The translations under genes were made by a program, and so were the position numbers. Shown one piece after another: positions 9,175 through 23,709 of a DNA stretch of 23,709 nt. This DNA comes from a virus. Location of the stretch: positions 1-23,709 of IMG/VR virus record IMGVR_UViG_3300020121_000056; one strand, given 5' to 3'. The notes beneath the pieces are model-generated. The model worked only from the letters and a program-made list of their open reading frames with translations, did no database searches and was not told the DNA's origin. Within the stretch, counting starts at the first letter, position 1. Every line of letters starts with the position of its first letter.

Positions 9175-9200
9175 ACCCGCCCTTGTGGCGGGTTTTTCTT
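9175..9200 (+). terminator. Intrinsic terminator between scaffold and coat genes
   Basis: ACCCGCC (9175-9181) pairs with GGCGGGT (9187-9193) around a CTTGT loop and runs into TTTTTCTTT. It should cut read-through from the scaffold gene unless antitermination is active. No obvious sigma70-type promoter is visible in the 50 nt between it and the coat ATG. Confidence 0.8.
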
Positions 9201-10446: not shown

Positions 10447-10454
10447 TCCATCTG

Positions 10455-10482
10455 AGCGGCCTTCGGGCCGCTCTTTCCTTTT
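10455..10482 (+). terminator. Intrinsic terminator after the coat gene
   Basis: AGCGGCC (10455-10461), a TTCG tetraloop and GGCCGCT (10466-10472), followed by CTTTCCTTTT. The UUCG-closed stem is very stable. The T tract is interrupted, so termination may be partial, which would lower expression of downstream genes relative to coat. Confidence 0.75.
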
Positions 10483-10507
10483 CATAGACACATAGGAGAG
10501 ATGGTCA

Positions 10508-10921
10508 ATGACCACTCGTACCGACTTCACGCAGCCACAGGCTGGTCTTCTGGGCGAAGCCCGCACCGTGAAAATGCTCGGTCGCCGCGTTACTCTTGCG
10601 GCCACCGATCTCGTTACCGGCAATATCGTTGAAGCGTTCATCGTTCCGGCTGGTTTCACTGTCACCGGCATCCTCGCGGTTGCCTCCGACATGGACTCTG
10701 GCGCTGCGCTGACCTTGAGCGTTGGTGATGCGGCAAGCGGAACCCGTTTCCTCAACGCCTCCACCATCGGTCAGGCCGGCTCTACGACTTCGACGCTTGC
10801 AACGACCGGCGTTCTGTTCGCCTACACGGTGGACACCAAGATCCTGGTGACTTGCACCTTGCAGGGCTCCAGCTCGGTCGCTGGCACGCTCGATCTCTAT
10901 CTGCAAGGCTTCGTCAACTAA
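10508..10921 (+). CDS. Probable head decoration or stabilising protein
   Basis: ATG 10508 has GGAGAGATGG upstream. The 137-aa product is beta-rich, low in charge, and rich in Thr, Ala, Gly and Val: VEAFIVPAGFTVTGILAVAS, ALTLSVGDAASGTRFLNAST, STLATTGVLFAYTVDTKILV. Proteins of this size and composition commonly follow N4-gp56-type coat genes and are thought to coat or stabilise the shell. The family name is not certain. A perfect inverted repeat follows the stop. Confidence 0.55.
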   Translation: MTTRTDFTQPQAGLLGEARTVKMLGRRVTLAATDLVTGNIVEAFIVPAGFTVTGILAVASDMDSGAALTLSVGDAASGTRFLNASTIGQAGSTTSTLATTGVLFAYTVDTKILVTCTLQGSSSVAGTLDLYLQGFVN

Positions 10922-10927
10922 ACGAAC

Positions 10928-10962
10928 AATTGCCTGCCGGTCGCGTTGACTGGCAGGCAATT
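10928..10962 (+). other. Perfect 11-bp inverted repeat between two late genes
   Basis: AATTGCCTGCC (10928-10938) and GGCAGGCAATT (10952-10962) are exactly complementary, with a 13-nt loop. The following CATTTGG is not a T tract, but the arm itself ends in AATT and the structure could slow polymerase or protect the upstream mRNA 3' end. The ribosome binding site of the next gene (GGAGGA) lies 6 nt beyond. Confidence 0.5.
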
Positions 10963-10979
10963 CATTTGGAGGATTTGCA

Positions 10980-11306
10980 ATGCGCAAGGCAACAGCGACC
11001 TATCACGCTCCGGACGGTGACAGCAAGGAAGTCGAAATCGGCGGGATGCATTTCCGCGACGGCGAGGCTGTCGAGATCAACTCGGATGAGCACCCTCATC
11101 TGATGGACAAGCTTCAGGGCAACCAGCATTTCGAGTTCGAGTCTGGCGAGGATGACGAGAAGCCGCGCCGAGGTCGGACGCCGAACCGCGATCTCAAGAA
11201 GGGCATCGAAGAGGCCCGTGATCACGACTTCGAGGCCGATCAACGCGCCAACGCTGCCAAACGGCAGACCGAGGCGGACAAGGCTTCGGCAGAAAAGACC
11301 ACTTGA
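10980..11306 (+). CDS. Small charged head-region protein, 108 aa
   Basis: ATG 10980 follows a strong GGAGGATTTGCA site. The N-terminal half is probably beta (ATYHAPDGDSKEVEIGGMHF, DGEAVEINSDEHPHLMDKL), and the C-terminal half is highly charged and disordered (EDDEKPRRGRTPNRDLKKG, DKASAEKTT). The position matches the small ORF between coat and gp4 in P22-like maps. No enzymatic motif is visible. A terminator follows directly. Confidence 0.6.
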   Translation: MRKATATYHAPDGDSKEVEIGGMHFRDGEAVEINSDEHPHLMDKLQGNQHFEFESGEDDEKPRRGRTPNRDLKKGIEEARDHDFEADQRANAAKRQTEADKASAEKTT

Positions 11307-11314
11307 TCCCAAAT

Positions 11315-11340
11315 GGCCCCTTTCGAGGGGCCTTTTTCTT
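11315..11340 (+). terminator. Intrinsic terminator before the gp4-like gene
   Basis: GGCCCCT (11315-11321), a TTCG tetraloop and AGGGGCC (11326-11332), followed by TTTTTCTT. It ends the coat-proximal transcription unit, 11 nt before the next start codon. Confidence 0.82.
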
Positions 11341-11350
11341 GTGAGGGCCG

Positions 11351-11689
11351 ATGTCCAAAACCCGCGCTGAGATCCAGAAGAAAGCCCTAGATATCCTTGT
11401 CGGAGGTGATGTCGGCGCGAGCATGTCGGATGAGGATGCTACCGCGCTCGATGGTTACATCGATAGCATGGTTGCCGAGATCAACGCGGATGGTATCGCC
11501 TATATTTCCGACCCCGATACTATGGACGATGAACTGTTCATTCCATTCAGCAAATTGGTTGCGAACGCCGCAGCTGAAGAGTTCGGCGGAAAGTCTGATG
11601 AGGAGTTTGCCAAGCAGACGCGTAACCGGATCAGGGTTTTGACCGCGCAAAAGCCCGGTTACGGCCCGCAGATCGTGGACTTTTTCTGA
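11351..11689 (+). CDS. P22 gp4-like head completion / portal accessory protein
   Basis: The 112-aa product is helical and begins with KTRAEIQKKALDILVGGDVG, continuing with MVAEINADGIAYISDPDTMD, FIPFSKLVANAAAEEFGGKS and an RIRVLTAQKPGYGPQIVDFF tail. The pattern 'A...L..l.....a..a..FG', with a basic C-terminal stretch, is seen in P22 gp4-type tail accessory factors, which bind the portal after packaging. Unlike P22 gp4 no muramidase function can be claimed. The gene lies between coat and gp10-like genes as expected. The stop overlaps the next ATG (TGATG). GTGAGGGCC upstream is the likely ribosome binding site. Confidence 0.6.
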   Translation: MSKTRAEIQKKALDILVGGDVGASMSDEDATALDGYIDSMVAEINADGIAYISDPDTMDDELFIPFSKLVANAAAEEFGGKSDEEFAKQTRNRIRVLTAQKPGYGPQIVDFF

Positions 11690-12180
11690 TGAAGCCGGAT
11701 GCTGAGCGTATTCGCGAGTTGCTAGCATATGATCCGCTGACTGGCATGTTCATTTGGCGCGTTTCACCCTCGCGCAATACGCCTGCTGGCTCTGTCGCAG
11801 GCGCAGACTGTGATGGATATCGCCTTATCAGAGTGGATGGCGGCAGATACAAGGCGCATCAGTTAGCTTGGCTGTATATGACAGGCGAATGGCCATCATG
11901 TCAGGTGGATCACAAGGATACTGATCGCTCCAATAATAGTTGGGAAAATCTTCGCCTCGCAACAACTAGCCAAAACAAAGCAAATATGGGCAAGCGCGCT
12001 GACAACACCAGCGGATATAAAGGCGTGCGTTGGTATCCTCAGACTAAGAGATGGGTGGCTCAAATCGGCTTCCAAGGGAGGTCCAAAACCATCGGCTATT
12101 TCCCAACTCCGGAAGACGCGCATGCTGCTTACTGTCAAGAAGCTAAGCGTTTGTTTGGAGAGTTCGCGAGATTTGGGTAA
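11689..12180 (+). CDS. HNH-AP2 homing-type endonuclease
   Basis: The 163-aa product has the free-standing HNH homing endonuclease layout. The N-terminal segment (about 9-66) reads LLAYDPLTGMFIWRVSPSRN then YKAHQLAWLYMTGEWP. The HNH motif (about 68-98) is QVDHKDTDRSNNSWENLRLA with catalytic His (VDH) and the structural Asn pair, followed by SQNKANMG. An AP2 DNA-binding domain (about 106-155) reads GYKGVRWYPQTKRWVAQIGF with a conserved aromatic YFPTPEDAHAAY. Such genes spread by cutting DNA lacking them. It sits exactly between gp4-like and gp10-like genes, with one-base overlaps at each end (TGATG and TAATG). It has no visible structural role and is probably a mobile passenger. Confidence 0.88.
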   Translation: MKPDAERIRELLAYDPLTGMFIWRVSPSRNTPAGSVAGADCDGYRLIRVDGGRYKAHQLAWLYMTGEWPSCQVDHKDTDRSNNSWENLRLATTSQNKANMGKRADNTSGYKGVRWYPQTKRWVAQIGFQGRSKTIGYFPTPEDAHAAYCQEAKRLFGEFARFG

Positions 12181-13625
12181 TGCCGCCTATTCATGTGCCT
12201 TTTCCATTATCCACATCTCCCGGAGCGAATTCCCAAGAGAGTGCGGGCCGGCTCATAAATTGCCTGGCCGAACCACTCGGTAAGGACATCGGGTCACAAA
12301 AAGGGTTTGTCCCTCCGGTCGTCGTCTGGCGCAAGTGTCCCGGACTTGCGCAGTTCTGCACCTCAACGCAGAGCGGTTTCCGCGGCGGATTGCTAGTCGG
12401 TAGCGCGCTCTACACTGCCTGGAGCGGGAAGGCGGCAACGTACACATCTGCTGGTGTTGAAGCGGTCCTAACGGGGACACTGAACGGCACTGAAAAGGTA
12501 TTCTGGGCGCGCAACAACAAGAGCCCGACGCCTGATGTTGTGTGCGTCGCTCCTGGTACTGGAGCGTTTTCGGTATCCTCGACCGCTGTTATCTCGTTTG
12601 CTGATCCAGATATCGGAACGCCCAACAGCGTCGGGTTTATGGATGGATATTTCATCTTCACCTATGGCGACGGTACAATCCAAGCCTCAGGCTTGAACGA
12701 TGTCACGATCGCAACGACGGACAAGACGAAGGAACAGGCCAAGACGGGCGGTTTGACGCGGGGGCTTCCGTTCAACGGGCAATACTACGTCTGGGGGCCT
12801 AACTTCGGTGCGGTCTACTCGGATACTGCGCAGCCGACAGGATTCCCATTTACGCGCTCCTATGTGATCCAGCGCGGTTTGCTAAGCCCGTATGCGGTTG
12901 CAGGTCATGAGGATGGTTTCGGATCTGCTCTTATCTGGGTTGCAGATGATAACTCAGTAGTGCAACACAACGGCACGCCGAACCCGTTGAAGATTTCTCC
13001 GCCTGATCTGGATCGCTTGATCGCTGCGGTAAGCGATAAGAGCACGTTGGAGGCATCTGTATACATCTCGCAGGGGCATCCGAAATGGGTGTTATCCTGC
13101 CCGGCGTTTACATGGGAGTTCGACCTCGGCAGCCAGAAATGGAACGAGCGCGCGAGCTACCAGCAGACGCGCTGGCGGGCAATCAGTGGCATCTCGGCTT
13201 TCGGCAAGTGGGTCACGGGCGACACGCAAGGCAACCGACTGCTGTATCTTAGCGAAACGTCATACGATGAAAACGGTAATCCGCTGATGTTTCAGCTTGA
13301 GAGTGGGCCCGTCAAGAACTTCCCGAACCGAACGAAGGTAGCGCGGGCAGATTTTGATTTCGTGGTTGGAGTTGGGCAGGCAACAGGGGCAGACCCGATC
13401 GCAACTGATCCCAGCGTTGGGATTTCGTGGTCGGACGATGGCGGGACTTCCTGGAGCCAGGAGTTCGTTCGCAAACTCGGTCGGCAGGCAACACCGCAGC
13501 GGATCACGATGCTGCGGACAGGAATGTCTGGGATGCAGGGGCGACGCTGGCGGCTCAAGGTTTCTGATCCTGTCTATGTGGCGTTCATGGGCGCAACGCA
13601 AGATGCACAGTTGAGAAACCACTGA
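12180..13625 (+). CDS. P22 gp10-like packaged-DNA stabilisation / tail accessory protein
   Basis: The 481-aa beta-rich product opens with PFPLSTSPGANSQESAGRLI followed by NCLAEPLG, the usual start of gp10-type proteins (a P-x-x-N.QE.. RLIN.yaE pattern). Later motifs include FRGGLLVGSALYTAWSGKAA, FMDGYFIFTYGDGTIQASGL, SALIWVADDNSVVQHNG and a C-terminal VGISWSDDGGTSWSQEFVRK segment. P22 gp10 forms a ring under gp4 that closes the portal and provides the platform for the tail needle and spikes. Length is close to P22 gp10 (472 aa). The start overlaps the HNH gene stop, and the stop overlaps the next start (TGATG). Confidence 0.8.
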   Translation: MPPIHVPFPLSTSPGANSQESAGRLINCLAEPLGKDIGSQKGFVPPVVVWRKCPGLAQFCTSTQSGFRGGLLVGSALYTAWSGKAATYTSAGVEAVLTGTLNGTEKVFWARNNKSPTPDVVCVAPGTGAFSVSSTAVISFADPDIGTPNSVGFMDGYFIFTYGDGTIQASGLNDVTIATTDKTKEQAKTGGLTRGLPFNGQYYVWGPNFGAVYSDTAQPTGFPFTRSYVIQRGLLSPYAVAGHEDGFGSALIWVADDNSVVQHNGTPNPLKISPPDLDRLIAAVSDKSTLEASVYISQGHPKWVLSCPAFTWEFDLGSQKWNERASYQQTRWRAISGISAFGKWVTGDTQGNRLLYLSETSYDENGNPLMFQLESGPVKNFPNRTKVARADFDFVVGVGQATGADPIATDPSVGISWSDDGGTSWSQEFVRKLGRQATPQRITMLRTGMSGMQGRRWRLKVSDPVYVAFMGATQDAQLRNH

Positions 13626-13822
13626 TGGCGAAGCCGCTGCCAAATCTCGACGTTCCCGTGATTGATCTCAAGACGGGATTCATGACGCAGAGTTGGTACG
13701 AATATTTTCAGTCCCGCAAAGGACTGGCGAACCTGCCTGATGTCTCAACGACCGCACCGACAAACGGTCAGGTGCTTATATACAACTCGACCACGAAGCT
13801 TTGGGTACCTGGAGCGAATTGA
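13625..13822 (+). CDS. Short tail-associated protein, 65 aa
   Basis: The product reads like a fibre or adaptor tip: LDVPVIDLKTGFMTQSWYEY, then LPDVSTTAPTNGQVLIYNST and TKLWVPGAN. The second half (an 'NGQVLxYNSxTxxWxPG' motif) is common in phage tail fibre and tail adaptor proteins. It occupies the slot where P22 has the tail needle gp26, but it is far too short and lacks the long coiled coil, so it is not a needle. It is coupled by TGATG overlaps at both ends. Confidence 0.65.
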   Translation: MAKPLPNLDVPVIDLKTGFMTQSWYEYFQSRKGLANLPDVSTTAPTNGQVLIYNSTTKLWVPGAN

Positions 13823-14493
13823 TGGCTGGTCTCTTCGACATTTTTTCTAATGACAGCGCTGAGCAGGCTGCTCGCGATCGAAATCAGGGCCTTCAGCAGG
13901 GCTACAACTCTCTGTCTGATCTATATGGTCAGGGTCGCAATGCAATCACGCAGGGATATGGACAGGCATCCAGCCTATATGCCCCTCTTGTCGCTTCGAC
14001 TGGAGCTGGCGCGAAAGCATACGGCGATGCGTCAGGCGCAAATGGCGTTACTGGCTTGCAGAACGCCATGGATACGTTCAAGAACAGCGGCCAATATGGT
14101 ACTTACGGGTTTTCGCTCGGCCAAGGGCTCCAGGCGCTTGATCGCACACATGCCGCCGCTGGTAACTTGGCGAGCGGTAATGCTGATGCTGATACACTCA
14201 ACTATGCCACAGGCCTCGCCGGCAAGACGTACTCTGATTATCTGAGTGGTCTTTCGCCTTATCTTGGCGCAAACTCGAATGCTGTTGCTGGTGCTGCGAA
14301 TGCCGCTACTGGTGGCGCAAACGCGTTGAACGCGAGCTATCAAGGGCAGGGCAACGCGGCGAACGCCAACTATACCGGGCAGGGGGCATCCAACGCTGCT
14401 GCCGACATGAACAATTATAACATTAGCCAGAACTTGTGGAACGGCATCGGTAAGGCCGTGAACCTCGGCGCTAGCCTGTTCGGTGGCTTCTGA
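13822..14493 (+). CDS. Probable ejection (DNA transfer) protein, gp7 position
   Basis: ATG 13822 overlaps the previous stop (TGATG). The 223-aa product begins MAGLFDIFSNDSAEQAARDR and is then rich in Ala, Gly, Asn, Ser and Tyr with many short repeats (YGQGRNAITQGYGQASSLY, GAANAATGGANALNASYQGQ, ANYTGQGASNAAADMNN), ending in an amphipathic GKAVNLGASLFGGF. Gly-Ala-rich N-termini of this kind are typical of small virion proteins ejected into the host envelope ahead of DNA. Position matches P22 gene 7. Direct evidence for ejection is lacking. Confidence 0.6.
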   Translation: MAGLFDIFSNDSAEQAARDRNQGLQQGYNSLSDLYGQGRNAITQGYGQASSLYAPLVASTGAGAKAYGDASGANGVTGLQNAMDTFKNSGQYGTYGFSLGQGLQALDRTHAAAGNLASGNADADTLNYATGLAGKTYSDYLSGLSPYLGANSNAVAGAANAATGGANALNASYQGQGNAANANYTGQGASNAAADMNNYNISQNLWNGIGKAVNLGASLFGGF

Positions 14494-16160
14494 TGGCCGA
14501 TATTGACGAGATCATTTCCGGAGCGCGGGGAAATACCCGCTATAGCTTCGATGCGATTGGAGATCCCGTCAAAGCGTTTCGCGATGCTCAGAAGCAGGCC
14601 GATGAAACCAACCTTCGGCGTGCTTTTAAGGATGGCGTTCCGACCGGCCCGGATGGTCAGCCTGACTTTGCGGCAATGTCGAAGATCCTTTTTCAGAAGG
14701 GTGGCCTGAGCGAAGGTGTTGCTGCCTCCAACCTTGGTATTCAGCGCGATCAATTGAAAGCCGGGCAAGACATTGCCGCCAAGATTGGGTCACTCGAAGG
14801 AGGCCAACCGGCGCAGCCATCTATTGTCAGTCCTCCGTCAGCAAATCGAACCGCAACGACGGCGGTAGCTCCTCCGCTCTCCCGCGGTGGTGCTCAGTCC
14901 GGCAGTCAGCCTGCTTCTCAGGGCGGGACAACAATCATGGGCATCTTGTCAGCCCAAGGCATCCCGAACGATCAACTAGGTCCCGCGGCAGCCTCGATTG
15001 CCCGGCAGATTGGTGTTGAAGACCCGAACGCGCCGATCAATGTGCAGGATCCTCAGGTTCGCAACGTACTAGTGCCGGCCATTCAGCAACTGAAGCGGAT
15101 GGGTATTGGTCAGGTTGTTCAGCAGCAGCCTCAGACCGCGCAGGCCGTACCACAGGCTCCGCAGCCACCACAGCAGATGGGACAGCAACCCAACCCGCAG
15201 CAGGATCAGGGAACGTTTGGAGCGCCTCCAGCGACGCCAACCCGTGGTGCTGTCCCGACTGGGATGGACCCTGAAATGCAGCGTAAGATCGCGATCTATA
15301 CTGCATATGCAAGCAATCCGGCCCTTCCAGAAGCGACGCGAAAGGTAATTCAGAGCCGGCTGGAAGCGATGCAGCGCGAGGCCGACCCGACTGGATCGAT
15401 GAAGGAATATGACCTTTACCGGCGACAGGGCGGCAATCTGCCCTTTAATGAATGGCAGGCCGACAACGAGCAGCGCAAGACCGCGGCGACCGAGGAAGCT
15501 AAGCTTGGCGCGCAGAAATATCAGAGCCTGGTCGAAGCCGGCACAAAAGCTCAGATGGAAATTCCGCAACTCGACTTGCTCAAAGAGCAGATGAACGATC
15601 CTAACTTCTTTTCGGGCGCTGGTGAAAAGTATAACCTGCTTTACAAGCGGCTTAAGAGCGCTGTTGGCATCGACCCGGATGCGGCTGTCCCGCAAGAATA
15701 TCTGCGTAAGGCGACGGCTGCCAACGTGCTTTCGTCTCTCGGAGCGCTCAAAGGTCTCGGTCAGATCCGCGTCGCCGAAATCAACATGGCGCGCGAGGCC
15801 GCAGCGTCACCTGAAAACTCGATCCCAGCGAACAAGCTCCTCGTTGAAATCTCCAAGCGAACGCATGAGCGCAACGCCCAGATCGCTGAAATGGCGCAGG
15901 AGTATAAGGACAAAAACGGTGTTCTTGATCCCGGCTTCGACAAGCAGGTAACAGCGTTCTATAAGAAGAACCCGCTATTCAACGATGCCGAAATCAAGGA
16001 CTGGCATAAGGTCATTGGCGAGCAGAAGCAGGCTTCGTCCGCTCCGAGCCAGCAGCGCTTTTCATCGCCCGCTGATGTGCATGCCGCAGTGGCAGCCGGA
16101 AAGCTCAAGTCGGGTGATAGCTTCGTCGATCCGACCGGCAAGACGCGGTACGTGCCCTGA
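14493..16160 (+). CDS. Probable ejection protein, gp20 position
   Basis: The 555-aa product has an N-terminal helical part (DEIISGARGNTRYSFDAIGD, VKAFRDAQKQADETNLRRAF), a low-complexity Gln/Pro/Ala region at about residues 205-260 (VVQQQPQTAQAVPQAPQPPQ), and a long helical, lysine-rich C-terminal half (TAATEEAKLGAQKYQSLVEA, RIAEMAQ-like helices). No enzyme motif is visible. With its neighbours it forms the three-gene block found between tail accessory and fibre genes in P22-like phages, whose products leave the capsid to form a channel across the periplasm. Starts and stops overlap as TGATG on both sides. Assignment is by order and composition. Confidence 0.55.
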   Translation: MADIDEIISGARGNTRYSFDAIGDPVKAFRDAQKQADETNLRRAFKDGVPTGPDGQPDFAAMSKILFQKGGLSEGVAASNLGIQRDQLKAGQDIAAKIGSLEGGQPAQPSIVSPPSANRTATTAVAPPLSRGGAQSGSQPASQGGTTIMGILSAQGIPNDQLGPAAASIARQIGVEDPNAPINVQDPQVRNVLVPAIQQLKRMGIGQVVQQQPQTAQAVPQAPQPPQQMGQQPNPQQDQGTFGAPPATPTRGAVPTGMDPEMQRKIAIYTAYASNPALPEATRKVIQSRLEAMQREADPTGSMKEYDLYRRQGGNLPFNEWQADNEQRKTAATEEAKLGAQKYQSLVEAGTKAQMEIPQLDLLKEQMNDPNFFSGAGEKYNLLYKRLKSAVGIDPDAAVPQEYLRKATAANVLSSLGALKGLGQIRVAEINMAREAAASPENSIPANKLLVEISKRTHERNAQIAEMAQEYKDKNGVLDPGFDKQVTAFYKKNPLFNDAEIKDWHKVIGEQKQASSAPSQQRFSSPADVHAAVAAGKLKSGDSFVDPTGKTRYVP

Positions 16161-18181
16161 TGCCCGTTGAACCCGTCATCACATTCCGGGATCAACCCGG
16201 CGGTAGCTGGGATGCCTTCCCAGATGCCCCGCCGAAGGCCGATAGCTGGGACGCATTTCCGGATAAACCGACGACGGACTATACTGGCGTAGCAAAACAG
16301 GCTGGCGTTGGTGTCGCTAAGGGAGCGATCGGGCTCGGCGGCATCGTCGGAGACCTTCAACAGATCGCCAAGAAGGTCGGCAGCTATCTGCCTGACATCA
16401 AGACCGATCCGGAGTCCGAAAAGTACGCTCGCAAATATGGCCGAATGGGCGATGTTATGTCGGTCGGCCAGCCACCAGAATTCCCGACCTCGCACGACAT
16501 CCAAGGCCAAGTCGAGAAGGTTACGGGAGAGTTTCGCAAGCCGCAGAACCAGACCGAGGCCGATGCCGAAACAGTGGGTGAGTTTCTGCCGGCGGCGCTC
16601 GCTGGGCCCGGCAGTCTCGCGCGCAAGGTCGTCACGCAGGATGCTATCCCAGCGGCTGCATCCATCGTCGCCGGCCGCTATAGCGATCAGAACCCCTACG
16701 TAAAGGCCTTGGCCGGCTTTATAGCAGGAGGCACTGGCGCGGCTCTATCTGGCCCCAACACGGCCGAAAAGCTCCTGAGGGATAAAATCCCGGCCTCTGT
16801 GACTGAGCAGGACGTGACCCGTGCCGGCCAGTTGATTGAACACGCACAGACCCGTGGCGTTACGCTGACATGGCCGGAAGCCTTGTCTCGCGTCACCGGC
16901 CAGCCCGTTTTGACCGATACCCAGCGGATCCTTGAAAGCCACGGTCAGACCAGGCCTCAGATGCAGGAGCTGTTCTCGGAGCGGCCGGCGCAGGTTGAAC
17001 AAGCGGCTCGGAATGAATTCGATCAGATCGGCAACCATCCGGCCTATCCCTCCACAATCGGGCCTCAGGCTGGAGAAGCTGCAAACGAAACGCTAACTGG
17101 TGTCCGTCAAACCATCAATAACGCCGCTGAACCATATTATCAGAATGCGGCTAACGTGCTTCTCACGCCGGCTGAAATGAGCCACGTCCGGGCTATTCCA
17201 GGATGGACGCAGGCCCGCGATGCGGTGCGTAATAATCCTCAATTGAATTGGCGGGTGGCAAACCTCCCTGATCATAGCGTTGGTTTCCTGAACGAGGTCA
17301 AAAAGCAGTTCGACCAGGCTGCGGAGAACGCGGCTTCCAAGTTCAACCCCAGCCGCAATCATCAGGTTCAGGCTTCCAACGAAATGGCGGCTTCGGCCGT
17401 CAAACAGGTCGGCGAGGCGAAGTCTGCGGATTACCAGATCGCACTCGAGATCGGCCGACAGGGCAGACAGCAGTTCCTGGAGCCTCTGCTTCAGGGGCCA
17501 CTTGGTAAGCTCGCCAAGAAGGACATCACTACTCAAAAGGCCATTTCGGCCTTATTCCCTGAGAACCCTGTTCCTGGAACGGCTGGCGAAATTTCGGATG
17601 CGGTGTCAGCTCTGGTTCAGCGCCGTCCTGCCGCTGCTGAGCAGTTGGTTCGCGCTCACGTCGAAATGGTGTTCAACCAAGCGGCGCGAGATCTTCAGGG
17701 CGGCGCCAACCAGTTCGCGGGCGCCAAGTTCGCCGCTAAGCTAGCTGGTGGAGTTCAGCAGCGCGAGAACCTTAGGGCTGCTATCGAAGCCCTCCCGAAT
17801 GGGCAAGCACGCTGGGAGGGCTTTAATCACCTTCTGGATATCATGGCCGCAACCGGGACGCGGCAGCCAAAGGGATCATTGACCGCCTTCAACGCGCTAG
17901 AGGTCCAGTCAATGTCGACGGGCGGCCTTCAGGAGTTGGCGGCGAAGAGCCTCTCTCCCGGTAAGTGGATGAGCTTCGCCAACGATGCCTTCAAGTCGTG
18001 GTCGCTCGGACGAAACCTCGATCAGATCGCTCGCATCATCACGGACCCACGTTCGGGGGATGCCTTGAGACAGATTGTTCGTATCCCACCGGGCTCCGAC
18101 CGTGCGCTTGTGATGGCTGGCCGCCTGATCGCGCTCGGCTCGGCTGTGACGACCGAACAGAGAACCAAGACCGCTAAGTAG
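16160..18181 (+). CDS. Probable large ejection / internal virion protein, gp16 position
   Basis: The 673-aa product has a repeated 'SWDAFPD' motif at residues 13-39 (GGSWDAFPDAPPKADSWDAF). Glycine-rich hydrophobic stretches follow (VGVAKGAIGLGGIVGDLQQI and ALAGFIAGGTGAALSG), which could contact membranes, and then a long helical Ala/Gln-rich body. No lytic transglycosylase or peptidase signature is present. It is the last and largest of the three putative ejection genes. WDAFP-type N-terminal motifs are frequent in internal virion proteins of alphaproteobacterial podoviruses. The last 273 nt are overlapped by a minus-strand frame. Stop TAG. Confidence 0.55.
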   Translation: MPVEPVITFRDQPGGSWDAFPDAPPKADSWDAFPDKPTTDYTGVAKQAGVGVAKGAIGLGGIVGDLQQIAKKVGSYLPDIKTDPESEKYARKYGRMGDVMSVGQPPEFPTSHDIQGQVEKVTGEFRKPQNQTEADAETVGEFLPAALAGPGSLARKVVTQDAIPAAASIVAGRYSDQNPYVKALAGFIAGGTGAALSGPNTAEKLLRDKIPASVTEQDVTRAGQLIEHAQTRGVTLTWPEALSRVTGQPVLTDTQRILESHGQTRPQMQELFSERPAQVEQAARNEFDQIGNHPAYPSTIGPQAGEAANETLTGVRQTINNAAEPYYQNAANVLLTPAEMSHVRAIPGWTQARDAVRNNPQLNWRVANLPDHSVGFLNEVKKQFDQAAENAASKFNPSRNHQVQASNEMAASAVKQVGEAKSADYQIALEIGRQGRQQFLEPLLQGPLGKLAKKDITTQKAISALFPENPVPGTAGEISDAVSALVQRRPAAAEQLVRAHVEMVFNQAARDLQGGANQFAGAKFAAKLAGGVQQRENLRAAIEALPNGQARWEGFNHLLDIMAATGTRQPKGSLTAFNALEVQSMSTGGLQELAAKSLSPGKWMSFANDAFKSWSLGRNLDQIARIITDPRSGDALRQIVRIPPGSDRALVMAGRLIALGSAVTTEQRTKTAK

Positions 18182-18310
18182 CAGTGTGGCGAAGAACGCC
18201 GCGCCGAGTCCAAGGACACCGACAGCGTAAGGGTTGTCAGTCCATTCGTATCTGATGTTGCCGCACATCACCGCGGCTATAATCGACAACTGGAAGAGCT
18301 TCCACATCAT
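17909..18310 (-). CDS. Minus-strand two-TM membrane protein (copy 1)
   Basis: Reading leftward from ATG 18310 (or the adjacent ATG 18307), the product begins MMWKLFQLSIIAAVMCGNIR, a first TM, then YEWTDNPYAVGVLGLGAAFF and ATLLLSGLGSLF, a second TM. The first 43 codons fill the only gap (18182-18308) between two plus-strand genes. From 18181 down to 17909 the frame runs antisense to the ejection gene, and that part (about 90 aa) looks like shadow sequence, so the real C-terminus is uncertain. GAGGCAGAGGCG upstream is a possible ribosome binding site. The start overlaps that of the divergent fibre gene. It resembles the minus-strand protein at 19308-19514 (NI..Y....NPY....FF). Membrane location is solid; function is not known. 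Confidence 0.55.
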   Translation of the reverse strand: MMWKLFQLSIIAAVMCGNIRYEWTDNPYAVGVLGLGAAFFATLLLSGLGSLFGRHSRAERDQAASHHKRTVGARWDTNNLSQGIPRTWVRDDASDLIEVSSERPRLEGIVGEAHPLTGREALRRQLLKAARRH

Positions 18311-19313
18311 GTTGAAACGCCTCTGCCTCGCCCTTGCGGGGCTTTTTGCATTTGTCTCGGTAGCCAGTGGCGCGGGGACTGTTCCTGGCTTTTCGCTGAC
18401 GCCGCAATTTGACCTTTCCGGAAAGGTCGCGCCGGGTTGCAAACTCTACATTATTCAGGCGGGAACGACCAGTACCCCGCAAAATGCCTACCAGGACAGC
18501 GGGCTTACCCTTCTTCAGCCCAACCCGATGACCTGCGATGCAGGGGGGAGGCTAAGCCAATTCTTCGTCGCTGACGGACTGATCAAGCTCAGGTTAACGG
18601 ACAAGAACGGCGTTCAGCTTTTTGTCGGTGATAATCTCCTGGTTGTCGGCCCCAGCTCTGGCGGGGGTGGAGGTGGCGGGACGGTAGATCCAACCACCAT
18701 TGCCGCAACGGGAGACGTGAAGGTTTCCTATGGAACTTCTATCCTGTCGGGATGGGTCAGGGCAAATGGAAGGACGATCGGATCAGCGACGTCAGGGGCT
18801 ACCGAGCGGGCTAACGCGGACACGTCTGCTCTCTTTGTCTATCTGTGGGGGGCCGATGCTAACCTTGCAGTGAGTGGAGGACGAGGCGCGTCAGCAGCGG
18901 CTGATTTCGCGGCCAACAAGACTATTGCTCTTCCGGATTGGCGTGGGCGTTCCATTGCCGGTCTCGATGATATGGGAAATAGTGCGGCGGGGCGGCTTAC
19001 TTCGACGTATTTTGGAACATCGGCGACGGTTCTTGGAGCTGCGGGCGGCACAGAAAGTCGGACTCTGACTGCCGCTCAACTGCCCTCAAACATTCCGTTC
19101 ACAGATCCTGGGCATACACACACAATCACTGCTCGACTTGGTGCCTCAACAACGTTCGGAACTATCGCAGCGGGTGGAAGCGCGGATAACGGCGCTTACG
19201 CTGGAATGGGAGCATCGACGGCGACGACTGGTATCACCATCAATCCAAGCGGCGGATCGGCGCACGCAACCGTTTCTCCAAGGATGCTTGCAACCATTTA
19301 TCTGAAGCTATGA
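18309..19313 (+). CDS. Tail fibre with signal-like N-terminus and tail-collar-like domain
   Basis: ATG 18309 is preceded by GGAAGAG. The 334-aa product begins with a signal-peptide-like segment (basic MLKR, then a hydrophobic core ending VASGAG at about residue 22). A beta domain follows (PGFSLTPQFDLSGKVAPGCK, IQAGTTSTPQNAYQDSGLTL), then a seven-Gly linker at about residue 118. The last part is collar-like: SILSGWVRANGRTIGSATSG, ALPDWRGRSIAGLDDMGN, SRTLTAAQLPSNIPF, a GHTHTI HxH motif and the end SPRMLATIYLKL. That order (W.R..G..LPD.RGR...G.D.MG.....LT..QLP) is the phage tail-collar/fibre-tip pattern, a likely receptor-binding part. Similar proteins occur in rhizobial phages. A signal peptide is odd for a virion protein, and its coding DNA forms an intrinsic terminator. 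Confidence 0.7.
   Translation: MLKRLCLALAGLFAFVSVASGAGTVPGFSLTPQFDLSGKVAPGCKLYIIQAGTTSTPQNAYQDSGLTLLQPNPMTCDAGGRLSQFFVADGLIKLRLTDKNGVQLFVGDNLLVVGPSSGGGGGGGTVDPTTIAATGDVKVSYGTSILSGWVRANGRTIGSATSGATERANADTSALFVYLWGADANLAVSGGRGASAAADFAANKTIALPDWRGRSIAGLDDMGNSAAGRLTSTYFGTSATVLGAAGGTESRTLTAAQLPSNIPFTDPGHTHTITARLGASTTFGTIAAGGSADNGAYAGMGASTATTGITINPSGGSAHATVSPRMLATIYLKL
18325..18347 (+). terminator. Intrinsic-terminator sequence inside the fibre signal-peptide codons
   Basis: GCCTCGC (18325-18331) pairs with GCGGGGC (18336-18342) over 7 bp with one G-U, loop CCTT, then TTTTT (18343-18347). It starts at nt 17 of the coding region and is read as LALAGLF. It would terminate untranslated RNA; translating ribosomes would disrupt it. 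Confidence 0.65.
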
Positions 19314-19514
19314 CCAATCCTTACCATAGCTTCTTCGCATCTTGCTATGCGCCTGATTGATGAAAAATAGCTCAACGATCCGCCCAAAGAAGTAGCCGAT
19401 CATTACTGCGATCAGGCAAGCGACATAGGGATTCAAAAGGTCAAAGTAGATATTTACGGCGGCTATAGAAAACGTCGTAAGTATCATAATAAAATTCCGA
19501 ATTAACGAAACCAT
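19308..19514 (-). CDS. Minus-strand two-TM membrane protein (copy 2)
   Basis: The 68-aa product starts at ATG 19514, with GGAG eight bases upstream, and ends in TAG at 19308-19310, converging with and overlapping the fibre stop by 6 nt. It has two TM segments: IRNFIMILTTFSIAAVNIYF (about 5-24) and NPYVACLIAVMIGYFFGRIV (about 28-47), then a short basic tail (INQAHSKMRRSYGKDWS). It fills an otherwise empty 249-nt gap and has its own promoter-like sequence (19534-19563). Base composition is clearly more AT-rich than its neighbours, suggesting recent acquisition. Topology and the NI...NPY...FF pattern match the minus-strand gene at 18310. Candidates: superinfection exclusion or lysogenic conversion protein. 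Confidence 0.7.
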   Translation of the reverse strand: MVSLIRNFIMILTTFSIAAVNIYFDLLNPYVACLIAVMIGYFFGRIVELFFINQAHSKMRRSYGKDWS

Positions 19515-19533
19515 CGTGTGTGCTCCGAGCTAA

Positions 19534-19563
19534 ACTATACCACCACAAGGTGAATCATATCAA
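19534..19563 (-). promoter_or_regulatory. Sigma70-type promoter for the minus-strand membrane gene
   Basis: Read on the minus strand, TTGATA (19563-19558) is followed by an 18-bp spacer and TATAGT (19539-19534). Each box matches five of six consensus positions. A start near 19527 would leave a short 5' leader containing the GGAG site before ATG 19514. The -35 box overlaps the start codon of the divergent plus-strand gene at 19563. Confidence 0.6.
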
Positions 19564-19904
19564 TGTCGATTACCGTAAGTTCCACGGCGACGAACAATTC
19601 TGACTGGAAGACTCAATTCCAGTTCAATGACGCCGACACTGGTGATTTGATCGATTTCACAGGAGCCACGATCGAGATCGACGTTAAGGATTTCGATGGG
19701 TGCCGACGTATCCAGGCTTCAACGGGGAATGGCCTGATCACCATCCAGAGAACAGGTATCTTTGAACTGGATGTTCCTGCTACGACGATGGAATGCCTTT
19801 GCCCCGGAACCTATCAGGTCGGAGGTGTCTACTCGCTCAACGGTGAAACGATCTCCCTATTTACCGGCTCGCTTGCGATCATCTCCGGAGTTGCGCGGCT
19901 GTGA
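19563..19904 (+). CDS. Small beta-sandwich-like tail protein, 113 aa
   Basis: ATG 19563 follows AAGGTGAATCATATCA. The product is a beta-rich domain: ITVSSTATNNSDWKTQFQFN, DADTGDLIDFTGATIEIDVK, GNGLITIQRTGIFELDVPAT, CPGTYQVGGVYSLNGETISL and a final FTGSLAIISGVARL. This order (W...F.F.D..TG..IDLTGA.I...V, then PGTY) is seen in small phage tail or baseplate proteins with an Ig-like fold similar to the BppU N-terminus. It overlaps the next gene as GTGA. It probably connects or decorates the tail fibres. Confidence 0.6.
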   Translation: MSITVSSTATNNSDWKTQFQFNDADTGDLIDFTGATIEIDVKDFDGCRRIQASTGNGLITIQRTGIFELDVPATTMECLCPGTYQVGGVYSLNGETISLFTGSLAIISGVARL

Positions 19905-20458
19905 CCATCCCTGTCTTGAAGATCAAGATTCTACCGGTCCCCAAGATCAAGGGAAAGATGGATGTCCGCTTTCCTGCGAACGTTGCAGTCGATGAATTCC
20001 TGACGGTCGTTAAAGCAAACGGTATCTATACTTTCGGCATAGATTATACAAAGCTTGATCATAGCGCATTCGTAGACCCTGCTAACACGTATGTTGCAGT
20101 TCTCGACGCAAGTTCAGCCAGCTATAAGATCACGACTTTATCGGTGCTAATTGCAGGGTCTACCGGCATTGTCCAGACCTTCACGGCTGGGGGCTCCGAA
20201 GCTATCGGCGCGAATACTGGCATTGCCGTAGTAAATCAGACTGTAGGCGCAGCCAAAACGCTGACCTTGCCGCTATCTTCCGTAAAGACCTGCCCGGTTC
20301 TTGTCAGCGACTTCAAAGGCGATGCAGGGACAAACAACATCACAATCAATTTGTCAGGCTCTGACAAATTTCCAGGCGGTCTGACGAGTTGGACAATAGC
20401 AGCCGATACAGGAAGCGTCTTCCTAAGGCCAGTGAGCGGGTTAGGGTACGTCCTCTGA
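19901..20458 (+). CDS. Tail-associated beta-rich protein, 185 aa
   Basis: The start is GTG 19901, overlapping the preceding TGA (GTGA). Residues 1-30 are Lys/Val/Pro-rich (TIPVLKIKILPVPKIKGKMD). Then follow VDEFLTVVKANGIYTFGIDY, TYVAVLDASSASYKITTLSV, an ANTGIAVVNQTVGAAKTLTL strand pair, and NNITINLSGSDKF with a C-terminal beta turn region. The 'I.VVN...AA.T.TLP.....g..v.v.D..G.a..n.ItI' pattern is a recurrent beta-helix-like module of phage tail fibres and spikes. It is co-translated with the fibre gene that follows (TGATG). Confidence 0.6.
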   Translation: MTIPVLKIKILPVPKIKGKMDVRFPANVAVDEFLTVVKANGIYTFGIDYTKLDHSAFVDPANTYVAVLDASSASYKITTLSVLIAGSTGIVQTFTAGGSEAIGANTGIAVVNQTVGAAKTLTLPLSSVKTCPVLVSDFKGDAGTNNITINLSGSDKFPGGLTSWTIAADTGSVFLRPVSGLGYVL

Positions 20459-21837
20459 TGAAATCTCTCCATAAGCTTTCCGCGCTCGCTCTGGCGAGCT
20501 TTTTTTATTTTTTTTCCACGCTGGCACAAAATCCCGGAGCCGTTACAAACCATGCACTAGCTGTTGGAAAGGGGCCTGGCGTGCAGGGCTATGGCTCTGT
20601 CCTGCTCGGAAACACGCAAATCGCGGTCGGCCAGACCGGCGCAGATCCTCAGGCGAAGACTGTTTCAGGCGACGCCACGCTGGCGAATACCGGCGCTCTG
20701 ACGCTCGCGGCGGTAAATTCTAATGTCGGCAGCTTTGGGTCTGCTACGAGCTGCGTTTCCTTCACGACGAATGGGAAGGGGCTTATCACTGCGGCGTCTG
20801 CCACGACATGCACGCCGGCCATAGGAAGTATTACCGGCCTCGGGACGGGAGTCTCAACGGCGCTGGGTGTCAATGTAGGAACCGCTGGTTCATTCATCGT
20901 GAATGGCGGCGCGCTAGGCACTCCTGCATCGGGAACGCTGACCAACGCTACTGGTTTGCCGATCGCAACTGGCATCTCAGGCCTTGGGACCGGCGTTGCA
21001 ACGTTCTTGACTACGCCGAGCAGTGCAAATCTGCGAGCTGCGCTAACTGATGAGGTCGGTACAGGAGCGGCATATTTCGTCGGTGGCGCGCTTGGAACGC
21101 CTGCATCTGCAACCCTGACCAATGCGACAGGCCTTCCTCTCTCTGGCTTGAATACTCAGGCAGCATGGTCGTTCGTGGTCAACAACACGTCGGGAGTTGC
21201 TTCCCCGACTGCGGTTGATATCGGGTCTTTTACCGCTAAAGCATCTCCGGCCGGAACGGATCTGATTGTCATATCCGACCAAGCAGCATCTGGAGCGCTG
21301 AAGCGCGCAACGATATCCTCTATTGCATCGGCCGGGTCTGTGGCGTCGATCGCGGGGAATACGGGTGCATTTACGCTGAGCCACGGCATCACGAATAGCG
21401 CGAATGATATCCAACTCTCTCTCAATAGCGCGATCATTTCCACGCAGCCGAGCAACCCTGCCGGAACAACGTCAGCAACTCCAGTGATGATGGGGCTTGG
21501 CGTTACCACGTGCCGCATCACGCCAACATACTCAACGCGAGTTGAATTTGAAATCTACGGTGACATTACCAACAGCACATCCGGTACGGTTACGATCCGA
21601 TACGCTTTTGGGACTGGTTCAGGCCCAGCCAATGGAGCTGCGGCCACAGGCACGCTGTCTGGCTCTTCCCTTGCTCCGTCACTCGCGAGCGTTTCGGATG
21701 TCAAGCCATTCAAAATAGGCAGCATCGTGCAGAGCCTGACAGCCGGAACGACCTATTGGTTCGATCTAGAGATCGGGACAAATGCGGGTACTGCGAACGC
21801 CTTGGCGCTGACATGCAACGCTAAGGAAGTGATGTAA
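20458..21837 (+). CDS. Tail fibre protein with signal-like N-terminus and repeats
   Basis: ATG 20458 overlaps the preceding stop (TGATG). The 459-aa product begins with a hydrophobic leader (MKSLHKLSALALASFFYFFS, then TLAQ). A beta-repeat body follows: GNTQIAVGQTGADPQAKTVS, two copies of a GALGTPAS.TLTNATGLP unit (about residues 151-168 and 210-227), GTDLIVISDQAASGALKRAT, and a C-terminal domain (GTTSATPVMMGLG to the end). GTPASGTLTNATGLP is a familiar repeat of phage fibre and spike proteins. The same reading frame upstream (20389) is only antecedent-gene sequence. The leader's coding DNA contains a strong intrinsic terminator. It probably acts in host recognition together with the 18309 fibre. 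Confidence 0.7.
   Translation: MKSLHKLSALALASFFYFFSTLAQNPGAVTNHALAVGKGPGVQGYGSVLLGNTQIAVGQTGADPQAKTVSGDATLANTGALTLAAVNSNVGSFGSATSCVSFTTNGKGLITAASATTCTPAIGSITGLGTGVSTALGVNVGTAGSFIVNGGALGTPASGTLTNATGLPIATGISGLGTGVATFLTTPSSANLRAALTDEVGTGAAYFVGGALGTPASATLTNATGLPLSGLNTQAAWSFVVNNTSGVASPTAVDIGSFTAKASPAGTDLIVISDQAASGALKRATISSIASAGSVASIAGNTGAFTLSHGITNSANDIQLSLNSAIISTQPSNPAGTTSATPVMMGLGVTTCRITPTYSTRVEFEIYGDITNSTSGTVTIRYAFGTGSGPANGAAATGTLSGSSLAPSLASVSDVKPFKIGSIVQSLTAGTTYWFDLEIGTNAGTANALALTCNAKEVM
20484..20515 (+). terminator. Strong intrinsic terminator inside the second fibre leader
   Basis: GCTCGC (20484-20489), loop TCTG and GCGAGC (20494-20499) are followed by TTTTTTTATTTTTTTT (20500-20515). It begins at nt 27 of the coding region and is read as ALASFFYFF. 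Both the 6-bp GC stem and the 15 T residues are textbook features. The T tracts could also promote polymerase slippage. Confidence 0.75.
20905..21137 (+). repeat. Diverged direct repeat in the fibre gene
   Basis: Bases 20905-20960 and 21082-21137 are diverged copies of a 56-nt unit, 177 nt (59 codons) apart, both encoding GALGTPAS.TLTNATGLP. Differences are mostly silent or conservative, so the repeat is kept at protein level. It is a normal fibre-shaft unit and a site where recombination could change fibre length. Confidence 0.7.
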
Positions 21838-22628
21838 TGGCCTTCATTAACACGCTATATAATCTTTGGCCCAATGGGGACCAGAAGATCAGCGGACTCC
21901 GCGATGGCATCGCAGCAACTGCGCCGGCCGTCTTCGAAAAGTATAAGATAAACACTCCGCTTTTGGTTTCCCACGTCATGGCCCAGATCAGCCATGAATG
22001 CGGGGCGGGGCATGATGTTGTTGAAAGCCTCAACTATAGCGCTGAGCGTATGACGGAAGTTTGGCCCGGCAGGTTCCCTGATATCGCCGCAGCGGCTCCA
22101 TATGCACATAACGAACGTGCTCTTGGGATCAAGACCTACGGAGGCCGGATGGGAAATCGGCCAAATACCGACGACGGGTACACCTATCGCGGCCGTGGCG
22201 GTTCTCAGGTGACCGGGCGAGATGGATACGTCAGGCTTGAGAAGGCTACGGGTCTGCCTGTCCTCGATAATCCAGATCTGGTGCTAGATCCTAAAAACTT
22301 CATGCTTTGTGCGGTAGCTGATTTCGTCGCCTGCGGCTGCCTTCCTTTCGCGTTGCAAGACGATATTTCCGGCGTCTCGGCCATGCTCAACGTTGGTCAT
22401 CTTGTCACGGATACCCGGAAAATTGTCGGATATTCCGAGCGTGTTGATTGGCTGAGGCGATGGAAGTCCGCGCTGGGTAGTGGGCCTATTGATTTCCGTG
22501 TTCCGTTTGCGCCACTCGACCCACCGCCAAAATCGGCGCCACAAGTCGCAGTAAACACCGCTCCAGCGCAACCCGCTCGGAGCGGTTTCTTTTCCAGCCT
22601 CATTTCAATCTTTAAACGAAAGGCATGA
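21837..22628 (+). CDS. Endolysin, GH19 chitinase-like muramidase
   Basis: The 263-aa product matches phage GH19 lysins: LLVSHVMAQISHECGAGHDV with a candidate catalytic Glu54 (HEC motif) and a second conserved Glu63. Then come ESLNYSAERMTEVWPGRFP, IKTYGGRMGNRPNTDDGYTY and the RGRGGSQVTGRDGY loop. The enzyme cleaves peptidoglycan at lysis. The usual catalytic domain of about 200 residues is complete; residues 218-263 form a Pro/Ala-rich tail ending in a hydrophobic/basic FFSSLISIFKRKA. There is no N-terminal signal, so a holin is needed. The start overlaps the fibre stop (TAATG), and the stop overlaps the next ATG (ATGA). Three small membrane genes follow, making a lysis cassette. Confidence 0.85.
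   Translation: MAFINTLYNLWPNGDQKISGLRDGIAATAPAVFEKYKINTPLLVSHVMAQISHECGAGHDVVESLNYSAERMTEVWPGRFPDIAAAAPYAHNERALGIKTYGGRMGNRPNTDDGYTYRGRGGSQVTGRDGYVRLEKATGLPVLDNPDLVLDPKNFMLCAVADFVACGCLPFALQDDISGVSAMLNVGHLVTDTRKIVGYSERVDWLRRWKSALGSGPIDFRVPFAPLDPPPKSAPQVAVNTAPAQPARSGFFSSLISIFKRKA
22573..22593 (+). terminator. Weak terminator-like hairpin near the endolysin 3' end
   Basis: CCGCT (22573-22577), loop CGG and AGCGG (22581-22585) are followed by TTTCTTTT. The short stem makes it weaker than the others. It lies 36 nt before the endolysin stop and could lower expression of the downstream lysis genes. Confidence 0.35.
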
Positions 22629-22789
22629 CTATGTGGACGGCATTTGATTTGACTATTTGCGCAATCAGCTTTGGATCCGGCGGCGCCTTTGTTTGGTTCT
22701 GCAAGGACTGGATTCAGAAAATGGTATTGGGGGCAAATGCCCTATCAGCAAAACTGCACGCAAAGGCTGATGCCTTGCGGAGGTCTTAA
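22625..22789 (+). CDS. Small one-TM lysis-cassette protein, 54 aa
   Basis: ATG 22625 overlaps the endolysin stop (ATGA); ATG 22631 is a two-codon shorter alternative. The product has one hydrophobic segment (WTAFDLTICAISFGSGGAFV) followed by WFCKDWIQKM and a helical basic tail (LSAKLHAKADALRRS). Its place between endolysin and holin suggests an accessory holin, antiholin or spanin-like protein. No lipobox is present, so it is not an outer-membrane spanin. No family is recognised. Confidence 0.6.
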   Translation: MTMWTAFDLTICAISFGSGGAFVWFCKDWIQKMVLGANALSAKLHAKADALRRS

Positions 22790-22791
22790 TC

Positions 22792-23373
22792 ATGGATTGG
22801 AGCACGGTCGGCGCACTCGTTGGTCAGGCTGCCCCTACGATTGGCGGCCTGCTCGGCGGCCTTATTCCATTTCCTGGGGGAGCTATTCTCGGCCAGGTGG
22901 CGGGGAAGGTTCTCGCAGAAGCTCTTGGCGTGCCTCCTACGCCAGCGGCAGTTGCTGCTGCCGTTCAGACTGGAGACCCTGCGACCGTACAAGCAGCTCT
23001 GACTGAGGCAGAAGCCAAGATGAATGCCGAGGTCGATAAGCTGAAGGCTGAGCTGGCAGACGTTCAGGACGCGCGGGCGACAACGGTTAAGTATGTGACT
23101 TCGGGTTCATCCCTATCATTTGGCGCGGTCGTCGTCTCGATCGTAGTTCTGATTGGCTTCTGCGGTATTTCGTTTCTGGCAATGAAGCCTGATCTTGCTG
23201 GCGTCGATAAGAGCGTCACTCTCTTCTTGCTCGGTGCATGGTCTGGTTTCGCCGGCAGCGTAATCACGTTCTGGATCGGTTCGTCGGCTGGGTCTGCTGT
23301 GAAGACTGATCAGATCGCTCAAATGGCAACGACAGCCGCGAACGTGTCCGCGAAAGCGGCATCTAAGAGATAA
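22792..23373 (+). CDS. Holin, GTA-type 3-TM family
   Basis: ATG 22792 has a strong GGAGG nine bases upstream. The 193-aa product has a Gly/Pro-rich N-terminal hydrophobic segment (APTIGGLLGGLIPFPGGAIL), an LAEALGVPPTPAAVAAAVQT stretch, a charged helix (EAKMNAEVDKLKAELADVQD), and two clear TMs (SFGAVVVSIVVLIGFCGISF; a second from VTLFLLGAWSGFAGSVITFW). This order is that of the 3-TM holins of gene-transfer agents and alphaproteobacterial phages. Holins open the inner membrane so that endolysin can reach the cell wall. The family call is good, the holin role is inferred from neighbourhood. Confidence 0.72.
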   Translation: MDWSTVGALVGQAAPTIGGLLGGLIPFPGGAILGQVAGKVLAEALGVPPTPAAVAAAVQTGDPATVQAALTEAEAKMNAEVDKLKAELADVQDARATTVKYVTSGSSLSFGAVVVSIVVLIGFCGISFLAMKPDLAGVDKSVTLFLLGAWSGFAGSVITFWIGSSAGSAVKTDQIAQMATTAANVSAKAASKR

Positions 23374-23383
23374 GCAGGCGGCC

Positions 23384-23410
23384 CAATCTGATGCTTGCGG
23401 CGTCAGATTG
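23384..23410 (+). other. Inverted repeat after the holin gene
   Basis: CAATCTGA (23384-23391) and TCAGATTG (23403-23410) form a perfect 8-bp stem with an 11-nt loop, but only AGCC follows. A T run (23434-23438) lies 23 nt further on, too distant for a standard terminator. It may stabilise the 3' end of the lysis mRNA. Confidence 0.4.
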
Positions 23411-23442
23411 AGCCTAACCACCACTGGAATGAGGTTTTTCCA

Positions 23443-23529
23443 ATGCCGGCTGCCACACATACAACCACGGGTTTCTTAATGAAGCCTGTTCAAAATTGCT
23501 CACGAAAGACGAAGCGCAATGGACAGTAA
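23443..23529 (+). CDS. Doubtful 28-aa ORF
   Basis: A short frame starts at ATG 23443 and ends at TAA 23527-23529, overlapping the next start by 11 nt. The peptide starts MPAATHTTTGFLMKPVQN and ends basic (KTKRNGQ). GAGGTTTTTCC lies upstream. No homology is recognised. It may be a coupling leader for the following membrane protein or chance. Confidence 0.25.
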   Translation: MPAATHTTTGFLMKPVQNCSRKTKRNGQ

Positions 23530-23709
23530 TGCTGTCGCTATCATTGCCTTGGTCTTTGCTGGAATTACATTGACCCTCAATCTAGGGCAGCGGATTTTCG
23601 GTGGTGGTTGGAATTTATCCAAGAACCTGACGGCAGTGGAAACTCGCCTTACGTTAGCTTTGACTGCCACTAAAAACGAAATCGAAGAACGCATCGACTC
23701 TACCAAAAA
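23519..23709 (+). CDS. TM/coiled-coil protein, truncated at the window edge
   Basis: The frame opens at ATG 23519 and is still open at the last base, giving at least 63 residues. It has an N-terminal TM (about residues 4-20: NAVAIIALVFAGITLTL), a short glycine-rich turn, then a helical region (NLSKNLTAVETRLTLALTAT followed by KNEIEERIDSTK) with heptad spacing. This is the layout of an inner-membrane spanin (Rz-like) or of an unrelated phage membrane coiled-coil protein. Its position after holin and endolysin favours a lysis role. The C-terminus is needed to decide. Confidence 0.5.
   Translation, partial: MDSNAVAIIALVFAGITLTLNLGQRIFGGGWNLSKNLTAVETRLTLALTATKNEIEERIDSTK

Follow-up and report, generated by a model that had tools for sequence, protein, structure and literature searches.

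Why does the tail-fibre gene of a phage carry, among its first codons, a sequence with the anatomy of an intrinsic (Rho-independent) transcription terminator, and which gene does that element serve? The locus lies in a stretch of viral DNA of 23,709 nucleotides (the window), which comprises positions 1 to 23,709 of the IMG/VR record IMGVR_UViG_3300020121_000056. The features discussed below are listed in Table 1.

Table 1. Features of the window, with positions, strand and basis of assignment.
Feature	Positions	Strand	Basis or remark
Major capsid protein gene	late block		Phage_capsid_3, phrog_334
Head-closure protein gene	late block		phrog_578
Endolysin gene	late block		phrog_181
Intergenic terminator 5' of major capsid gene	9175..9193	+	25 nt past preceding stop
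Intergenic terminator 3' of major capsid gene	10454..10473	+	UUCG loop; also in consensus scan
Intergenic terminator 5' of ORF at 11351	11315..11332	+	also in consensus scan
Tail-collar type gene with signal peptide MLKRLCLALAGLFAFVSVASGAG	18309..19313	+	phrog_8763 tail protein, E 8.7e-54
Terminator hairpin GCCTCGC-CCTT-GCGGGGC + T5, in collar signal-peptide codons	18325..18347	+	
Upstream gene, 185 codons, C-terminus ...SVFLRPVSGLGYVL	19901..20458	+	ORF list
Tail-fibre gene, ATG 20458, stop 21837, 1380 nt, 459 aa	20458..21837	+	ORF list
Fibre signal-peptide codons, MKSLHKLSALALASFFYFFSTLA, predicted cut before Q24	20458..20526	+	simple signal-peptide rule
Terminator hairpin GCTCGC-TCTG-GCGAGC, 6 bp, -9.1 kcal/mol	20484..20499	+	
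T tract T7-A-T8, codons TTT TTT TAT TTT TTT T	20500..20515	+	

The hairpin, the T tract and the gene around them

The element was first noticed in a reading of the sequence alone, and the letters at 20484-20515 are exactly those that it claimed: the arms GCTCGC (20484-20489) and GCGAGC (20494-20499) enclose the loop TCTG (20490-20493) and are followed by seven T (20500-20506), one A (20507) and eight T (20508-20515). The same reading placed the hairpin 27 nt into the gene, and since the ATG is at 20458, the first base of the stem, 26 nt past the ATG, is indeed the gene's 27th nucleotide. A GC-rich stem, a short loop and a T tract directly after it make up the anatomy of an intrinsic terminator. 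When the + strand is scanned along the whole window under strict criteria (dG of the hairpin -9 or lower, 5 or more T in 8), 6 sites emerge, whereas 100 dinucleotide shuffles average 0.44 (sd 0.62); if 7 or more T in 8 are demanded, 3 sites are left, and none of the 100 shuffles has any. A looser consensus scan of 10000-23709 gives no clear excess (18 sites, 14.0 expected, sd 3.8), and shuffled versions of the 61-nt surroundings of the hairpin fold about as well as the real sequence (z -0.10; 81 of 200 equally good). The signal is the perfect GC stem joined to the long T tract and, above all, its conservation.

The fibre gene has the collar-type gene on one side and the endolysin gene on the other. 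Its family assignment comes from homologues, 2 of 10 aligned ones belonging to phrog_11355 ("tail fiber protein"); the window's own fibre protein was assigned no PHROG family, and neither it nor the collar protein has a match in Pfam. The predicted structure of the fibre protein has a mean pLDDT of 35, with a helix at residues 3-19 as its sole feature. The fibre N-terminus has cellular matches in Bradyrhizobium tropiciagri, an Afipia MAG and a Rhodospirillaceae MAG, which makes a host of the Bradyrhizobium type likely. Several relatives have sites like the three intergenic terminators of the late block. Amid the structural genes, at 11689-12180, lies a 163-aa ORF whose product, judged by eye, resembles an HNH-type endonuclease.

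Residues 1-23 of the fibre protein begin with a charged segment, continue as a hydrophobic core and end in small residues, just before Q24. The stretch ALASFFYFF, which the earlier reading took for a hydrophobic leader, is indeed hydrophobic; it is not a separate leader peptide and is better read as part of the Sec signal peptide predicted for the fibre protein, MKSLHKLSALALASFFYFFSTLA|Q, in which the Ala/Leu-rich stem encodes, together with the Phe codons of the T tract, the hydrophobic core. This assignment stems from a simple rule of our own (charged n-region, hydrophobic core, small residues at -3 and -1), and gene calling in the analysis scripts was likewise simple and our own. All 30 fibre sequences satisfy the rule, and the n-region, the h-region and the A|Q junction line up across 29 homologous sequences. 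In the window, the rule picks only two genes, fibre and collar, and both have a terminator within their signal-peptide codons. We also rejected a later start of the fibre gene, at an in-frame GTG (20581, following GGAAAGGGG); homologues have other codons there (GTC in L002, ACG in L004).

Conservation among fibre homologues

Fibre homologues were gathered by a profile search of all loci, with only the mature part as the profile, which yielded 30 distinct N-termini, two of them (L136 and L073) from the same contig. The sequence-only reading had proposed to look for conservation of the stem at synonymous sites in such genes, and this conservation is found: a terminator-like element (dG <= -8) lies within the signal-peptide codons of 24 of the 30 (23 of 29 without the contig duplicate), against 4.83 (sd 1.88) expected after synonymous recoding with phage codon usage. 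Among the sequences below 65% DNA identity, 10 of 16 have the element, with 1.99 expected. In the controls, terminator-like elements occur in 2 of 95 host signal peptides, in 2 of 156 other phage ORFs with signal peptide, and, for ORFs without signal peptide, in 6 of 867 from phages and 0 of 247 from hosts. The cut-off of -8 applies to the recoding, control, identity-filtered and position analyses; -7.5 was used for inside hits in the collar classes, the collar tree and the bacterial-genome sample, and the listing of fibre homologues displayed hairpins down to -4. As the fibre homologues are kin to one another, their counts are of non-independent events.

The stems vary (GCTCGC/GCGAGC, GGTCGC/GCGGCC, GGCTGC/GCAGCC, GCCGCC/GGCGGC and others, in many cases with UUCG as the loop), and the peptides change with them (ALALASFF, VASAAFF, AAFGAAFF, AALSAAFF). 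Additional variants come from bacterial genomes. A fibre-type match turned up in 7 of 391 sampled genomes from the host family, and 4 of the 6 fibre N-termini that were read contain the element. Two of them (L276 and L277) have new stems, and two repeat a known peptide together with its hairpin (L274 that of L167, L233 that of L150); L278 has no element, and L275 retains an AAFF peptide and T6 without the stem. Homologues with the peptide and without the hairpin, which the earlier reading had named as evidence against itself, are thus few, namely 6 of the 30 and L275, while 24 of the 30 keep the hairpin.

Covariation was assessed for 16 of the 24 fibre hairpins (14 distinct), which are those with a 4-nt loop; hairpins with 5- and 7-nt loops, the 5-bp hairpin of L172 and the duplicate L073 were omitted. 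All counted cells (100%) are paired, 2 of the 6 pairs have changed on both sides and 3 of the 6 are invariant. Neither any of 500 shuffles nor any slid version reaches the covariation score. The number of pairs changed on both sides and the number of pair types are weak indicators, because 34 and 280 of the 500 shuffles, respectively, equal them.

Codon choice was compared at residues that are identical between two homologues (23 sequences without L073, forming 243 non-independent pairs). Ala codons agree in 299 of 521 such comparisons within the hairpin, in 114 of 418 further along the signal peptide and in 295 of 954 within the mature part. Phe codons agree in 249 of 293 comparisons within the T tract and in 81 of 176 within the mature part; the codons themselves are TTT 38 times and TTC 3 times in the T tract, as against 15 and 16 times in the mature part. 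Leu codons show no difference (8 of 25 against 103 of 302). The peptide search pattern LASFFYFF may favour peptides with FF, a bias that does not affect the codon tests, since the patterns are codon-degenerate.

Position in fibre and collar genes

The TGA of the upstream gene (20456-20458) and the ATG of the fibre gene share one base. Similar arrangements are the rule: in a survey of 29 of the 30 fibre sequences, with identical starts merged, 28 of 29 homologues have an upstream ORF whose stop begins at a position from -7 to +8 relative to the start of the fibre gene, most commonly in the form ATGA. The exception is L120, with the upstream stop at -19. The hairpin starts 20-29 nt past the fibre ATG and 21-25 nt past the upstream stop, the latter in all 22 genes measured, of 23. 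With the duplicate L073 left out, the hairpin centres of 25 genes scatter with a standard deviation of 1.56 nt when counted from the upstream stop and of 2.49 nt when counted from the ATG (r 0.82), and none of 10000 permutations of the stop positions was as tight as the observed spread. The hairpin is thus held more tightly to the upstream stop than to the fibre start, and therefore the terminator is, in terms of position, that of the upstream gene, with the fibre start floating over it. It falls inside the fibre signal-peptide codons because the fibre start sits on the upstream stop codon.

The collar family offers a comparison at larger scale. The 91 distinct collar starts divide into 51 with a signal peptide and 40 without. 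Those without have a terminator just upstream in 23 cases and none in 17; those with a signal peptide have it inside in 16 cases, inside as well as upstream in 3, only upstream in 13 and in neither place in 19. Overall, 39 starts have a terminator upstream and 19 have one inside the signal peptide, 3 having it in both places. Inside terminators exceed the expectation after synonymous recoding here as well (19 of 52 observed, 1.48 expected, sd 1.15), also below 75% identity (10 of 36, 0.98 expected) and below 65% (3 of 17, 0.24 expected).

The upstream collar hairpins start 35-59 nt 5' of the start codon, with the T tract heading toward the ribosome-binding site, which would leave little space for a promoter between terminator and start codon. 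The inside terminators lie 12-21 nt from the start, and their distance to the upstream stop is loose (16-210 nt), so that the anchoring to a stop is confined to the fibre gene. Collar genes without signal peptide start (M-AGTIPLS...) about where the mature form of those with a signal peptide would start. In three collar genes (L043, L111, L112) another hairpin, followed by a weak T tract, lies at about +62, in the AGTVPGF codons, and could be driven by the codons. A tree of 85 collar sequences has 36 state changes; it was made by a quick method, has many weak branches and is unrooted, so that gain and loss look alike in it, and it omits L038, L161, L182, L186 and L216, which are short, and L207 and L150, which have no usable start.

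What the comparison of homologues establishes, at the level of sequence, is the presence of the element, its conservation beyond the needs of codons and peptide, the covariation of its stem, its anchoring to the upstream stop and the conservation of the signal-peptide features.

What the element may do

Together, our data suggest a model that we consider probable, in which a leaky terminator of the upstream gene is overprinted by the signal peptide of the next gene and steps down transcription of the fibre gene. The intrinsic terminator would mark the end of the gene at 19901-20458, about 21-25 nt past its stop, and with the fibre start codon atop that stop it would come to lie inside the fibre signal-peptide codons, as one of several terminators along the late block (9175, 10454, 11315). 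The distance of the hairpin from the stop would let it fold without hindrance from a ribosome that terminates or re-initiates there. RNA polymerase would stop here only partly, so that the fibre gene and later genes would have fewer transcripts than the upstream genes, and the fibre signal peptide would be exported and cut. Since full termination would silence the fibre gene, either leakiness or antitermination must be assumed. Searches of 12 relatives found no Phage_antitermQ (PF06530), for which the control search did match, and no phage RNA polymerase (PF00940), for which the control likewise had no match, so that this second absence carries no weight.

Intrinsic terminators between genes are known from phage late operons, where downstream genes are still expressed, T-phi of T7 being an example. 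The fibre element resembles them in its GC stem, its short loop and its T tract past a gene's stop, and differs in lying inside the ORF of the next gene, in signal-peptide codons.

A translation-responsive attenuator, as in the sequence-only reading, would work differently: ribosomes coming off the upstream gene would start anew at the overlapping ATG and melt the hairpin, and only brisk translation would let fibre transcription continue. Translational coupling is suggested by the overlap or near-overlap of start and stop in 28 of 29 homologues, and the hairpin would be in reach of an elongating ribosome at its distance from the ATG. Translation-coupled attenuators such as pyrBI, pyrE and ampC-frd are similar in that a terminator lies near a gene junction and read-through could depend on nearby ribosomes. 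The fibre element, however, has no leader ORF of its own, its codons belonging to the 459-codon fibre frame, and no consistent antiterminator was seen for it: in single-sequence folds the 5' arm pairs upstream to varying extent, without a structure in common. Its tighter placement relative to the upstream stop than to the fibre start codon also speaks against attenuation, as do the collar-family terminators of the same kind, which are often outside the coding region. We therefore consider such an attenuator unlikely, though translation may possibly play a role in read-through, because the fibre start overlaps the upstream stop.

The hairpin and the U run could also act on the mRNA, by pausing translation for export, by stimulating slippage or by protecting the 3' end of the upstream message. 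The anatomy would be identical, and T7-A-T8 would be a plausible slippage site, but the T tracts of homologues are frequently just T5-T6 and the same kind of element occurs at intergenic sites, which makes such a role very improbable. Least credible is a by-product of an Ala/Leu/Phe-rich signal peptide that yields palindromes and T runs by chance: such peptides do raise the odds, to the 4.83 of 30 expected, and 6 of the 30 fibre sequences have the peptide without the terminator, but the 24 observed, the low counts among host and other phage signal peptides, the codon conservation and the stem covariation lead us to reject it.

The leaky-terminator model touches on the suggestion, also made in the earlier reading, that an old intergenic terminator was captured into the coding region. 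The positions fit, given the near-fixed distance to the upstream stop and the collar terminators that often precede the start; the unrooted collar tree gives no direction for the change. Our boldest proposal, a tentative one, is that signal peptides of tail genes were made from terminators: a start codon would have shifted upstream past a conserved terminator, perhaps on more than one occasion (fibre and collar), and a GCN-rich stem with its T tract would have become an Ala-Ala-Phe-Phe core, as position and composition suggest. If true, the same DNA would serve as an RNA stop signal and as an export signal, each constraining the other, and terminators would be a route by which signal peptides arise.

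Related observations come from other systems. In E. coli, premature termination inside ORFs and at 5' ends has been mapped by RNA 3' ends and proposed to be regulatory (Adams et al. 2021, PMC7815308); the cases in that paper are alike in that the signal lies inside a coding region or close to its start, where RNA 3' ends are found, and differ in being mapped RNA ends from one bacterium, whereas the fibre case is a comparative sequence pattern in a phage gene family. The main text of that paper contains neither "signal peptide" nor "signal sequence". In yeast, thymine-rich DNA has been linked to de novo membrane segments in whole emerging sequences (PMC7005711); there too, T-rich non-coding DNA can read as a hydrophobic peptide, while the case described here concerns a terminator together with a phage tail gene's signal peptide. 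Searches of open-licence PMC papers, a scope outside which subscription papers fall, listed no title or abstract that mentions a terminator inside the signal-peptide codons of a phage tail gene.

The locus is a compact example of overprinting, in which a protein targeting signal shares its letters with an RNA control element, and its natural variants are numerous enough to show where selection acts. It also suggests that phage annotation should not throw out terminators within coding regions. Conserved export-type signals on tail proteins are unexplained by standard views of virion assembly. Many tail-region ORFs of related phages begin with predicted Sec-type signal peptides, with or without a terminator.
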